Assembly: GCF_018398315.1 (NCBI RefSeq)
Contig: NZ_JAHBRW010000001.1
Span: forward strand, 1,422,001-1,486,000
Length of the DNA: 64,000 bases
Direction: 5' to 3'
Source of the DNA: Chelatococcus sp. YT9
Lineage (GTDB): Bacteria; Pseudomonadota; Alphaproteobacteria; Rhizobiales; Beijerinckiaceae
Below, piece after piece: positions 48,103-59,731 of this stretch. Position numbers and translations under genes: made by a program. Position 1 is the stretch's first letter. Every line of letters starts with the position of its first letter. Below the pieces are notes generated by a model. The model ran no database searches. It worked only from the letters and a program-made list of their open reading frames with translations, and was not told the origin of the DNA.

Positions 48103-48756
48103 CTATCCCCGCTCAAGCTCAGAGGCCGCGCTCACGATGAGAATCCGCGCTTCGGGATCCGTTAAGCTCGGCGCGATATCGGCCGTGATTCTCCAAGATT
48201 TAGCGGCCTCGGTCAATTCGGCATCGAGATCCTGGCCCTTCGGAAATATCCCGACTGCTCCGGTTCTCAACAGATCTTTGACCATTGGCATTAATCGGAC
48301 CACTGGCGCCAAGGCGCGCGCCGTCACGACCTCCACCTGCCCGGCAAACTGATTCGCCACATTTTCAATGCGGCCCTCGTGAACGTGAGCCGGTGCGCCG
48401 GTCGCGCGAATAGCAGCCCGCAAAAACGCACATTTCCGGCTGTTGCTCTCGACCAGATGGACTTCTGCCTCCTCAGATTCGCTGAGGAGAATTGCGATGA
48501 CGAGCCCCGGCAGCCCAGCGCCCGATCCAAGATCGAGCCACCGGCGCGCGGCGGGCCGGAGGCGGAGAAGCTGCGCCGAGTCAGCGATGTGCCGTCCCCA
48601 GATGTCGTCCAGGGTTCCTGGCCCCACCAAGTTCTTGATCGATTGCCACCGCCGAAGCTCGTTGACGTAGGCGCGGAGCTTGGCCTCGGTTTCACGTGAA
48701 ACACCAGCGACACTGGTAATGTCCAGACCGCCGTTATCGCTCGCTGACGCCATCAA
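48103..48756 (-). CDS. rsmG: 16S rRNA m7G527 methyltransferase RsmG (GidB)
   Basis: Methylates G527 of 16S rRNA; its loss gives low-level streptomycin resistance in several bacteria. The SAM-binding motif is WLDLGSGAGLPGLVIAILL, with LVESNSRKCAFLRAAIRATG and VVTARALAPVVRLMPM further on. The length of 217 residues is normal. It lies 76 bases after mnmG and just before parA. A parS-like site is embedded in its 5' coding part. Confidence 0.96.
   Translation of the reverse strand: MMASASDNGGLDITSVAGVSRETEAKLRAYVNELRRWQSIKNLVGPGTLDDIWGRHIADSAQLLRLRPAARRWLDLGSGAGLPGLVIAILLSESEEAEVHLVESNSRKCAFLRAAIRATGAPAHVHEGRIENVANQFAGQVEVVTARALAPVVRLMPMVKDLLRTGAVGIFPKGQDLDAELTEAAKSWRITADIAPSLTDPEARILIVSAASELERG
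48689..48704. other. parS-like centromere site 1
   Basis: Matches the bacterial parS consensus TGTTTCACGTGAAACA at 15 of 16 positions; the core GTTTCACGTGAAAC (48690-48703) is perfect. It lies inside rsmG, about 1.5 kb from parB, and is a likely ParB loading site. Confidence 0.88.
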
Positions 48757-50751: not shown

Positions 50752-50767
50752 CGTTTCACGTGAAACA
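50752..50767. other. parS-like centromere site 2
   Basis: The core GTTTCACGTGAAAC (50753-50766) is perfect; the full site matches the 16-base parS consensus at 15 positions. It lies in the short gap between mnmE and mnmG and is a likely ParB loading site. Confidence 0.88.
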
Positions 50768-54327: not shown

Positions 54328-55263
54328 TCAGGCAAAATACCAGTCGCTGGTGGACGGGTTCCATGCGAGTGAGTGCAGGTAGTCGCTCTGGCTCACGTTT
54401 TCCGCGCTATCCGCGAAAGCGATGAGAAGGCCCTCTCTGCTAAAGCCGTTTTGCAACTGGCTAATCCAGAATGCTGCCCCCGCGCTGTCGCTGGCCCGAC
54501 CCAACACATTCTCATACATGACCTCAACCAAGTCGGCGTTGGTCATGGTGTATGCATTTCCATATGCCTTTGTGAACTCGGCGCTCTTGAGGAGCGAGCC
54601 TACGATATCCTGCTCCGAGACCCCGCTCACCTGCACGTCATACCAGAAGTTCAGACCCGCAATGTCCGCTTTACGGCCAAGCCCGGCCTCGTAGAGGCGG
54701 CCAACAGCCTCCGCATCGGCCTTATTGGAGCCGAAGGCTTCCTGCTCCCGATGGAAGTTGATGGTGTCGTTGGCGTCGTTGGACAGAAACCCGGTCAGAC
54801 CAAGGCCGCCCAACCCTTCCCATGGTATGTCGCCAATGAAGCTCTCCTTGCCCGGGAGATAGTAGGCGATTTCGCCCCAACTCAAGCTCACGTCATTGAA
54901 ATGATAGAGCTCCACCTGCCGCCCTGGATCGAGCCAGTCGAGCACGATGACCGACGTGTCGCTCGCGGTGTCCCAAAGAACCAGATGGCGATTATCGATC
55001 GTCGCGATGTGGCTCGTGGGTGATGACCACGAGATGCCCAGCATCGTCACATAGTCATGCCCGCCGCTGTCCGAGATGACCATATCGCCGTTGACGATGT
55101 AGCCATCCTCACCCTTGCCGCCCATGGCGAGGTTGAGACCGCCGCGCGCCTTGCCTTCGATCGTGTCATTGCCGCCATACCCATAAGCGACGGAATAGGA
55201 ACTTCCGAGCGTCAGGTAGTCCCGAAACGACACACCGCTCGTTGGTGTCAGATTGATAACCAT
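54328..55263 (-). CDS. DUF4214 / RTX-like protein
   Basis: A 311-residue protein with two parts. The N-terminal third has an RTX-like, Gly/Asp-rich section (YGYGGNDTIEGKARGG and MGGKGEDGYIVNGD) as in calcium-binding proteins secreted by type I systems. The C-terminal 120 residues form a DUF4214 domain with two linked repeats: LYEAGLGRKADIAGLNFWYD and MYENVLGRASDSAGAAFWIS. There is no Sec signal, which fits type I secretion by a C-terminal signal. No ABC exporter is adjacent. The function is unknown; surface or matrix roles are inference. Confidence 0.85.
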   Translation of the reverse strand: MVINLTPTSGVSFRDYLTLGSSYSVAYGYGGNDTIEGKARGGLNLAMGGKGEDGYIVNGDMVISDSGGHDYVTMLGISWSSPTSHIATIDNRHLVLWDTASDTSVIVLDWLDPGRQVELYHFNDVSLSWGEIAYYLPGKESFIGDIPWEGLGGLGLTGFLSNDANDTINFHREQEAFGSNKADAEAVGRLYEAGLGRKADIAGLNFWYDVQVSGVSEQDIVGSLLKSAEFTKAYGNAYTMTNADLVEVMYENVLGRASDSAGAAFWISQLQNGFSREGLLIAFADSAENVSQSDYLHSLAWNPSTSDWYFA

Positions 55264-55499: not shown

Positions 55500-56765
<1,266 letters not shown>

Positions 56766-57409: not shown

Positions 57410-58474
57410 TCAGCCTAACCCGTCACGCACCCGCTTGACGAGCCTTTCCACATGCGGAATCGGCGTCTGCGGCAGAATGCCATGGCCGAGATTGAAGACA
57501 TGAGGACGCCCGCGGAAGGCACCAAGGATCGCGTCGATCGCATGATCGAGGGCATCCCCACCTGAGAGCAGAACCCCGGGGTCGAGGTTGCCCTGTACCG
57601 GGCGGATAGCCTGAACGTCACGCGCGCGGTCCAACGCCACTCCTTGGTCCAGGCCCACCGCGTCGACACAGCTTTCTGCAGCGAACAGCGGGTAAAAGCG
57701 GCCACTCCCCTTCGGAAAGCCGATAATCAGGGCCTTGGGAATCTCCGAGCGGACGCCCTGCACAATTCGGCTGATCGGCTCGAGGCACCATCGACGGTAG
57801 AGGGCTTCATCCCTGACGAGCGCGCCGGCCCAGCTGTCGAAGATCTGGACGGCGTCGGCGCCAGCTTTCAGCTGGTTGACCAGATATCGAGTCGATTGCG
57901 CGACAAGGAGGTCGATGATCTCGGCAAAGAGCTCAGGCTGCTGGGCAGCGAGATCGAGAGCAGGAGCTTGGTCCGGCGTGCCTCTGCCTGCAACCATATA
58001 GGTCGCAACCGTCCAAGGCGCCCCGCAGAAGCCGAGTAGCGCCGTTTCGCTTGGTAAGGCCGCTCTCACCCGGGCGACCGTCTCGAGCACGGCACCGATC
58101 TTCTCGGGATCGAGATCCGTGCGCAGCGCTGCGACATCCGCAGGCGTTGTAACCGGCTTTAGCCGTGGTCCCTCTCCCTCGACAAACCACAAGTCCTGCC
58201 CAAGGGCGTGCGGAACAACGAGAATATCGCTGAAGAGGATGGCGGCATCGAAGCCGAAGCGGCGAATGGGTTGAAGTGTGACCTCCGTGGCCAGGCTCGG
58301 CGTATAGCAGAGGTCAAGAAACGATCCCGCTTCAGCACGCAAGGCACGATATTCCGGGAGGTACCGGCCAGCTTGGCGCATCATCCAGAGAGGGGGAGGG
58401 GTCATTGCCTCTCCGGCGAGCGTTTTAAGAATCGGGGAGGCCGAGCTTTCGGAGGCTTGCAGGACGCTGGTCAC
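57410..58474 (-). CDS. hemE: Uroporphyrinogen decarboxylase
   Basis: Removes four acetate carboxyls from uroporphyrinogen III to give coproporphyrinogen III. PPLWMMRQAGRYLPEYRALR, GFCGAPWTVATYMVAG and QIFDSWAG are family signatures. The length of 354 residues is normal. The start is GTG 58474 with a GAAGAGAGA ribosome-binding region; no in-frame ATG fits. It reads away from the presumed origin, as in Caulobacter and Rickettsia. Confidence 0.97.
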   Translation of the reverse strand: MTSVLQASESSASPILKTLAGEAMTPPPLWMMRQAGRYLPEYRALRAEAGSFLDLCYTPSLATEVTLQPIRRFGFDAAILFSDILVVPHALGQDLWFVEGEGPRLKPVTTPADVAALRTDLDPEKIGAVLETVARVRAALPSETALLGFCGAPWTVATYMVAGRGTPDQAPALDLAAQQPELFAEIIDLLVAQSTRYLVNQLKAGADAVQIFDSWAGALVRDEALYRRWCLEPISRIVQGVRSEIPKALIIGFPKGSGRFYPLFAAESCVDAVGLDQGVALDRARDVQAIRPVQGNLDPGVLLSGGDALDHAIDAILGAFRGRPHVFNLGHGILPQTPIPHVERLVKRVRDGLG

Positions 58475-58900
58475 ACCATCTCTCTCTTCAAATCTAATCT
58501 TATTTTAGAGTCTAGATTCTGTTGTTTCTACTGGTCAGGGCATGACGCATGCGCCAGTCCCGTCCACAACCAGTCCCCAGATTGCTCGCGCGGTATGGCC
58601 GGGGAACGGCGGCCAGGCGAGGCGCCGCATATCTTAACAAACCGTTAATCTTCATGGTTTGTTAACGATTGCGGCGCGATTGAGTCGACGCTGTCCCCGC
58701 TTGCGTCGAATGACCCGGCCGGAATCCATCCATAGGAGGCTGGCTGTTGATCGCTTCGACCACTCAAGCCACAGTGTGGCGTCGGGTCTGGATACAGGCG
58801 GGGGTTCTCCACAGTCGTCAACGCTTCATCCACTTGGCTGTTAGATGACTTGGCATGGCTCCATCCGCTGGGCCCGCCGCAGGAAGGTTGGGAAAAACAC
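58475..58900. other. Putative chromosomal replication origin (oriC)
   Basis: Intergenic region between divergent hemE and the PPDK regulator gene, the position of oriC in Caulobacter and Rickettsia. AT-rich DNA near hemE (58485-58535) could unwind. A perfect TTAA-N7-TTAA CtrA-type site lies at 58634-58648. DnaA-box-like sequences are TTCTCCACA at 58805-58813 (8 of 9 to TTATCCACA), a CCACAGTGTGG dyad at about 58769, TCATCCACT at 58826 and GTATCCAGA on the minus strand near 58787. Three GANTC methylation sites (58508, 58515, 58682) are present. No gene is seen. Confidence 0.8.
58634..58665. promoter_or_regulatory. CtrA-type binding site within a 10-bp inverted repeat
   Basis: TTAA (58634-58637), 7 bases, TTAA (58645-58648) is the full CtrA consensus. 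The first half also starts an inverted repeat, TTAACAAACC (58634-58643) with GGTTTGTTAA (58656-58665). In Caulobacter CtrA bound at the origin represses replication; the same is inferred here. Confidence 0.65.
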
Positions 58901-59731
58901 TTGAGTCGCAGCTACTTCCATATTCATCTCGTATCCGATTCGACGGGTGAGACGCTCATTGCGGTCAGCCGTGCTGCGGCCGCCCAGTACGAAGGGATCT
59001 CGGCGATCGAGCATGTCTATCCCTTGGTGCGGTCGAAAGCGCAGCTGGAACGGGTCATCGCGGAGATCGATGCCGCGCCGGGCATCGTGCTCTATACCCT
59101 GGTCGAACCGGACCTGGCGGCAATGTTGGAAGCGGCCTGCGCAGCCGCGAGTTCTCCTTGCCTCCACGTCCTGGATCCCGTCCAGCGGCTGTTCGAATCA
59201 TACCTCGGCATGGCGTCGCAAGCGCGTCCAGGCGCCCAGCACACGCTGAACGCGGACTATTTCCGGCGCATCGAGGCGATGAATTTCACGTTGATGCATG
59301 ATGATGGGCAAATGGCCGATGACGTAGATGCGGCGGATGTCGTGCTGCTCGGCGTCAGCCGGACGTCGAAGACGCCGACCAGCATTTATCTGGCGAACCG
59401 AGGCATCAAGACAGCTAACATTCCACTGGTGCCGGGTGTTCCCGTGCCGCCGCAGGTGATGGAAGCACGCAAGCCCTTGATCGTCGGGCTGATCGCGACA
59501 CCGGAACGCATTGTCGAGATCCGTCGCAACCGTCTTCTCAGCCTGCGTGCGGACGAGGATTCGGACTATGTAGACCGGGATATGGTAGCGGAGGAAATCG
59601 CTCAGTCGCGCCGGTTGTGCTCACGGAACAATTGGCCCGTGATCGATGTGACGCGTCGTTCAATTGAGGAGACGGCCGCGACGATCATCGAGCTGCATCG
59701 CGACCATCGTTTGAAGTTTATCGCGCTATGA
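58901..59731 (+). CDS. PPDK regulatory protein (DUF299, kinase/pyrophosphorylase)
   Basis: Bifunctional regulator that phosphorylates and dephosphorylates pyruvate phosphate dikinase (or PEP synthase). [13 protein letters not shown] opens the protein; the P-loop-like motif is [23 protein letters not shown] 58901 gives the usual family start ([11 protein letters not shown], read as Met) and 276 residues; another TTG at 58850 would add 17 residues that fit no relative. It is the first gene on the right of the origin, as its Caulobacter and Rickettsia counterparts are. Confidence 0.92.

Follow-up and report, generated by a model that had tools for sequence, protein, structure and literature searches.

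The window analysed here is a stretch of 64,000 nucleotides from Chelatococcus sp. YT9, corresponding to positions 1422001-1486000 of contig C1, which measures 4,368,288 bases in a 6.74-Mb genome of seven contigs. Between positions 58475 and 58900 of the window (C1:1,480,475-1,480,900) lies a non-coding gap of 426 bases, flanked by two divergent genes in the list of open reading frames and their translations; the original prediction had described precisely this region, with the same coordinates. The left boundary gene, hemE, occupies 57410-58474 on the minus strand, with a GTG start at 58474 (TIGR01464, 378.6 bits against a cut-off of 302.95). The right boundary gene, for the PPDK/PEP synthase regulator (DUF299/COG1806), occupies 58901-59731 on the plus strand and has a TTG start (NF003742, 346.6 bits, cut-off 225); an alternative in-frame TTG is found at 58850, and the start at 58901 is preferred because the matches of relatives begin there. 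To the right of DUF299 follow maf, aroE, coaE, dnaQ and, on the minus strand, secB (ORFs and NCBIfam names), which is the order that had been predicted and presumably also the order downstream of DUF299 in Caulobacter. The best Maf model reaches 233.6 bits, under its curated cut-off of 269, and the gene layout is unaffected by this. To the left of hemE are hemJ and rho, and further out mnmE, mnmG, rsmG, parA, and parB; rsmG, parA, parB, and mnmE were named by reading, and the other neighbour genes by NCBIfam families. Flanked by rho and a gene with a thioredoxin domain (at 55500 and 54197), a minus-strand ORF of 311 amino acids (54328-55263) carries stretches that by eye resemble calcium-binding repeats and DUF4214.

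By DUF299, the nearest named locus is that of Chelatococcus asaccharovorans (98% identity), and two further genomes of the genus have DUF299 99% identical. In an alignment of four Chelatococcus gaps, 297 of the 426 window positions are invariant and these are unevenly spread, for example 28/29 in 58804-58832 and only 20/51 in the spacer 58570-58620. The AT-rich patch of the original prediction is found beside hemE at 58475-58537 (54 of its 63 positions invariant in the four Chelatococcus) and reaches 77% A+T in the 30-base window 58485-58514; it is a candidate unwinding element. The gap as a whole has 43.9% A+T, a modest excess over the 32.5-40.4% of 47 sampled C1 stretches. Across relatives, mean A+T peaks in the tenth of the gap beside hemE (0.62 in 51 regions, 0.71 in 39).

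Within this patch, on the minus strand at 58516-58536, seven consecutive NAN triplets (5'-GAC CAG TAG AAA CAA CAG AAT-3') form a DnaA-trio-like run. The longest such run in relatives averages 5.1 on the minus strand against 3.47 in shuffles, and 3.37 against 3.25 on the plus strand. Period-3 runs of A on the minus strand exceed dinucleotide shuffles (3.83 vs. 3.09 in 90 regions, 4.50 vs. 3.40 in the order sample) in a test run on the gaps minus the 25 bases next to hemE, and period-2 runs are raised too (3.81 vs. 3.07 and 3.78 vs. 3.43, respectively). The nearest box-like stretch (58560-58568) starts 23 bases from the run. Since the published limit for the spacer between DnaA box and trios in a BUS is 16 bases (available part of PMC8287927), the run probably does not form a complete BUS, and a full BUS was set aside on this distance and on the raised period 2.

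Consensus DnaA boxes are scarce in the gap. No exact box (TTATCCACA) is present there, and the only box at one mismatch is TTCTCCACA at 58805-58813 on the plus strand, located by motif scan and alignment within the invariant GTTCTCCACAG. The whole 64-kb window holds six boxes at one mismatch against 4.5 expected, which is no enrichment, and the strict box count was dropped as main evidence. The DnaA-box core TCCACA occurs in two copies in the gap, both invariant across the four Chelatococcus regions; because strict boxes are so few, the DnaA part of the origin argument rests on conservation of this core. On this point the original prediction is corrected. A weak core-like sequence, CCGTCCACA, lies at 58560-58568 on the plus strand and is invariant in the genus. 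The element ATCAACAG (58744-58751, minus strand), kept in 4/4 Chelatococcus, is found on the plus strand in 24 and as its complement in 22 of 90 dereplicated regions, against about 0.3 and 1.1 in shuffles; it could represent a divergent DnaA box or be recognized by another factor.

GANTC occurs four times in the gap, more often than the 137 sites of the 64-kb window would lead one to expect (Poisson P 0.014), again in line with the original prediction. The CcrM-type GAGTC at 58682-58686 falls within the invariant GATTGAGTC (motif scan and alignment), and the others are at 58508, 58515, and 58722. For IHF, the consensus is taken here to be WATCAANNNNTTR; it has no exact match in the gap, and a single near match, differing at one position, overlaps the CtrA site described below.

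The CtrA motif is given as TTAA-N7-TTAA in the accessible text of PMC10225481. As had been predicted, the gap contains an exact site of this type, TTAACAAACCGTTAA, at 58634-58648 on the plus strand, and the motif scan places a second site with one mismatch, TTAACAAACCATGAA, at 58651-58665 on the minus strand, inverted to the first. Exact TTAA-N7-TTAA occurs twice in the 64-kb window, against 0.02 expected, and at four places in the 530 kb of the own genome that were scanned; of these four, the gap is the only one where two TCCACA cores accompany the motif inside a span of 426 bases. The block 58632-58666 is invariant at 34/35 positions across four Chelatococcus, and the wider block 58632-58686 at 53/55 positions in the genus. 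A 38-base pattern of the CtrA block matches one place in the genome when up to three mismatches are allowed, and the wider conserved block is palindromic, with 27-base arms that are 78% complementary. Thus, a TTAA-N7-TTAA site in the gap and a ctrA gene are present as in a Caulobacter-type origin, and an exact IHF site is not.

To survey CtrA-type sites across the order, exact TTAA-TTAA pairs with spacings N2 to N16 were scored in hemE-DUF299 gaps against shuffles. N7 is found in 26/31 loci of the window's family (shuffles 0.1; the next spacing, N13, in 7), and in 32/90 loci of other families of the order sample (shuffles 1.7; next N14, in 6), these 32 being spread over 16 of the 39 sampled families other than the window's own. 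Among named loci, N7 is present in 15/29 of L060-L088 (shuffles 0.1), where N3 (8/29) and N14 (7/29) are raised too, and in 8/49 of the more distant L089-L139 (shuffles 1.3, maximum 4; the next spacing in 3), or 5/39 after dereplication (shuffles 1.1, maximum 4). N7 is the leading spacing in all four locus sets.

A CtrA site within an origin may have other uses. The TTAA-N7-TTAA could serve transcription of hemE or DUF299 and not repression of replication, as CtrA is primarily a transcription regulator according to the part of PMC4588119 at hand and the site starts at a distance from the hemE start, 160 bases, that could suit a promoter. This is countered by the constant relative place of the site in the window's family, between the groups of DnaA cores (26/29 sites at 0.3-0.5 of the gap; more spread in other families, with 22/36 at 0.3-0.6), and by Caulobacter, where CtrA displaces DnaA at the origin (same portion of PMC4588119). 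We consider a purely transcriptional role unlikely, with an appreciable chance of being correct; neither the position of the site nor the Caulobacter precedent separates one CtrA role from the other. More doubtful is that the conserved GTTAAC-rich block is the site of another factor and has the CtrA spacing by chance, an account that would explain why the block is longer and more palindromic than one CtrA site needs, and why N3 and N14 are raised in the nearer named loci, and against which stands the lead of N7 in every set.

DUF299 was found in 103/120 order genomes and 56/60 family genomes, and a divergent hemE adjoins it in 199 of 206 loci (the other seven have no hemE inside the sequence stretch examined), giving 193 distinct gap sequences of 266 to 602 bases. 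Downstream, maf-aroE-coaE-dnaQ is kept in 59 of the 67 named loci longer than 8.7 kb, seven having no aroE match and one no match at all. Two records have unusual labels. In L115 (JAHREI010000001.1), titled Bacillus subtilis, the gap between hemE and DUF299 measures 399 bases and DUF299 has a Pseudochrobactrum-like score, so that the record is probably mislabelled or mixed. NZ_LR743510.1, filed in the plasmid collection as a Methylobacterium bullatum sequence of 2.83 Mb, corresponds at 1099502-1103640 to half of the stretch from hemE to coaE and may be a piece of chromosome.

Motif enrichment in relatives was measured in 90 dereplicated regions (of 107) against shuffles. TCCACA occurs on the plus strand in 74/90 regions (8.3 expected), GTCCACA in 55/90 (shuffles 1.6), and GTTAAC in 36/90 (shuffles 4.3). 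GANTC is about twice as frequent as in shuffles in the family set (138 vs. 59), the near set (118 vs. 48), and Chelatococcus (17 vs. 8), and counts 118 vs. 69 in the distant set.

Strand asymmetry (KOPS density and GC skew) and parS sites bear on the origin independently of the gap sequence. The motif GGGNAGGG, which we take to be the KOPS motif of E. coli, was fitted with a two-rate model over the first 100 forward sites listed on C1, which reach 1.87 Mb; sites on the reverse strand and those of the control motif read backwards entered as counts without positions. Among these, the best breakpoint in forward density is C1:1,480,000, with 36 sites per Mb before it and 117 per Mb after it. The log-likelihood gain is 16.8, a value to be compared with the 11.5 that was the highest reached by any of 500 uniform draws on a coarser grid; the 2-unit support interval is 1.4405-1.5005 Mb and the 3-unit interval is wide, 1.2145-1.515 Mb. 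GC skew, sampled in 47 stretches of C1 and not as a full-contig curve, is negative in 15/20 stretches left of the gap (mean -0.018) and positive in 24/25 to the right (mean +0.016; Mann-Whitney P 1.7e-5, with adjoining stretches not independent), the comparison omitting stretches at 4.15 Mb (-0.029) and 4.30 Mb (+0.005), which lie beyond a second sign change near the contig end. By KOPS and sampled skew together, the strand asymmetry switches at the gap, as in a hemE-type oriC, and the GC-skew check proposed with the original prediction agrees with it.

The five left stretches with positive skew include three that adjoin at 1.438-1.462 Mb, plus those at 0.70 and 1.40 Mb. The adjoining ones correspond to window positions 16000-40000, where skew is about zero or positive within a mostly negative arm; an island or an inversion might give such a pattern. 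The second sampled sign change falls between 4.01 and 4.15 Mb, which on a closed circular C1 would give unequal arms of about 2.6 and 1.8 Mb. Since the single dif-like pattern searched, ATAA-N6-TTATGTTAA, gave no match with one mismatch allowed, the terminus is merely bracketed by the sampled skew.

The sequence GTTTCACGTGAAAC, which we assume to be the parS core, has only two exact copies genome-wide, 7.7 and 9.8 kb left of the gap, at 50753-50766 between mnmG and mnmE (C1:1472753-1472766) and at 48689-48702 (C1:1470689-1470702). Its inner part, TTCACGTGAA, is seen inside the hemE-DUF299 gap itself in 4/26 family, 2/22 near named, and 1/39 distant loci; in L041 of the window's family, for example, a centromere-like site lies within the origin itself. 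Both dnaA and ctrA (423.8 bits, cut-off 350) are on C1, and repC is above cut-off on C2 and C3 only; C1 is therefore taken as the DnaA chromosome. The dnaA gene, at 1.627 Mb, is 146 kb from the gap, and the 12 kb around it contain a single DnaA box, with one mismatch, and lack an exact CtrA site.

It is very improbable that the origin lies elsewhere on C1, for example beside dnaA or in the mnmG-parAB cluster, and that the gap is only a conserved divergent hemE/DUF299 promoter pair. The distance of dnaA, the parS sites at mnmG, and the few strict boxes in the gap would suit this; against it, origin-type motifs accumulate in the gap in the 90 dereplicated relatives. An origin linked to dnaA was rejected on the KOPS breakpoint and motifs, as a breakpoint at 1.627 Mb, judged on the first 100 sites listed, falls 10.9 log units short of the best one and dnaA has no box cluster nearby; the 2-unit interval spans mnmG-parAB, and this location is therefore disfavoured by motifs and homology and not by the breakpoint.

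The region 58475-58900 is thus almost certainly the DnaA-dependent replication origin (oriC) of the main chromosome, C1, of Chelatococcus. ORFs, protein families, and comparison of loci delimit it, and the identification made in the original prediction is supported by the KOPS breakpoint, the sampled skew, the parS sites, and the restriction of repC to C2 and C3. It is an ordinary origin, of the kind to be expected in an alphaproteobacterium, and strong DnaA boxes are few in it; a 2011 paper cited in PMC4588119 reportedly described Caulobacter's own DnaA sites as weak. The position of the Caulobacter and Rickettsia origins between hemE and COG1806, also part of the original prediction, agrees with the accessible part of PMC1914354. 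According to the same portion of that source, the Caulobacter crescentus origin Cori, which like the present gap lies between hemE and COG1806/DUF299 and has DnaA and CtrA sites, contains five of each together with one IHF site. The Chelatococcus gap has a single DnaA box, with one mismatch, lacks an exact IHF site, and carries one exact and one near CtrA site. Wolbachia and Ehrlichia origins share hemE as one boundary and contain DnaA, CtrA, and IHF motifs, but their other boundary gene is COG1253 (available text of PMC1914354).

The working of the origin is predicted to be as follows. DnaA would bind a small number of weak boxes at either side of the gap and open the AT-rich, DnaA-trio-like patch next to hemE, and one fork would then depart in each direction. 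Segregation by ParAB would begin with the parS sites, which lie 8-10 kb to the left. Between the box groups, phosphorylated CtrA would occupy the two inverted sites at 58634-58665, and it may silence the origin until removed, as in Caulobacter. Methylation of GANTC by CcrM would mark whether the origin has already been copied.

What appears to be new, as far as sequence comparison can tell, is the almost invariant CtrA-type block at 58634-58665 and the contrast in CtrA sites within one order. The Ensifer and Rhizobium loci have the same boundary genes as Chelatococcus, and in a Sinorhizobium meliloti record the match to DUF299 begins at base 419, as if its numbering started from the hemE-DUF299 gap. 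Chelatococcus differs from S. meliloti in the nearly invariant CtrA-type block, the S. meliloti origin being described as having neither CtrA motifs nor CtrA binding, and whether or how CtrA regulates initiation there as unclear for lack of such sites, in the portions available of PMC4433202 and PMC11500502. In Brucella, binding of CtrA to the origin was not found, as far as the available part of PMC2877005 reports. The distribution of the exact motif across the order fits these published absences. In the literature covered, from which most subscription papers were missing, no statement was found on the origin of Chelatococcus or its family.

The eight L089-L139 loci with the site belong to five Bartonella, one Pararhizobium MAG (L104), and two unclassified Hyphomicrobiales MAGs, and the Bartonella gaps are AT-rich (A+T 0.67-0.73). 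On a FastTree of DUF299 only, with 135 rows (62 with the site, 73 without) and 32 of 132 inner branches open, the site label changes 20 times against 44.9 in shuffles, a tree that cannot separate gain from loss. In an 11-row clade of Rhizobium, Ensifer, Shinella, Hoeflea, Pseudochrobactrum, and family f22, the site is present only in two Bartonella rows, which are AT-rich; L104 was outside the row selection of the tree. The Bartonella, Pararhizobium, and Hyphomicrobiales MAG sites therefore count against a clean loss in rhizobia, and losses are probably overcounted because exact-match scoring treats sites with one mismatch as absent.

As to which state came first in the order, we infer, with confidence slightly better than even, that control of the chromosome origin directly by CtrA is the earlier condition in Rhizobiales (Hyphomicrobiales). 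It would have persisted in Chelatococcus, in most of its GTDB family, and in several further families, and would have disappeared in the part of the order to which the rhizobial models Sinorhizobium and Brucella belong; the origin in the window would thus be Caulobacter-like and CtrA-gated within the rhizobial order. The contrast, in the same order and at the same gap, lets one ask whether CtrA gating of the origin was lost in rhizobia, and what may have replaced it.
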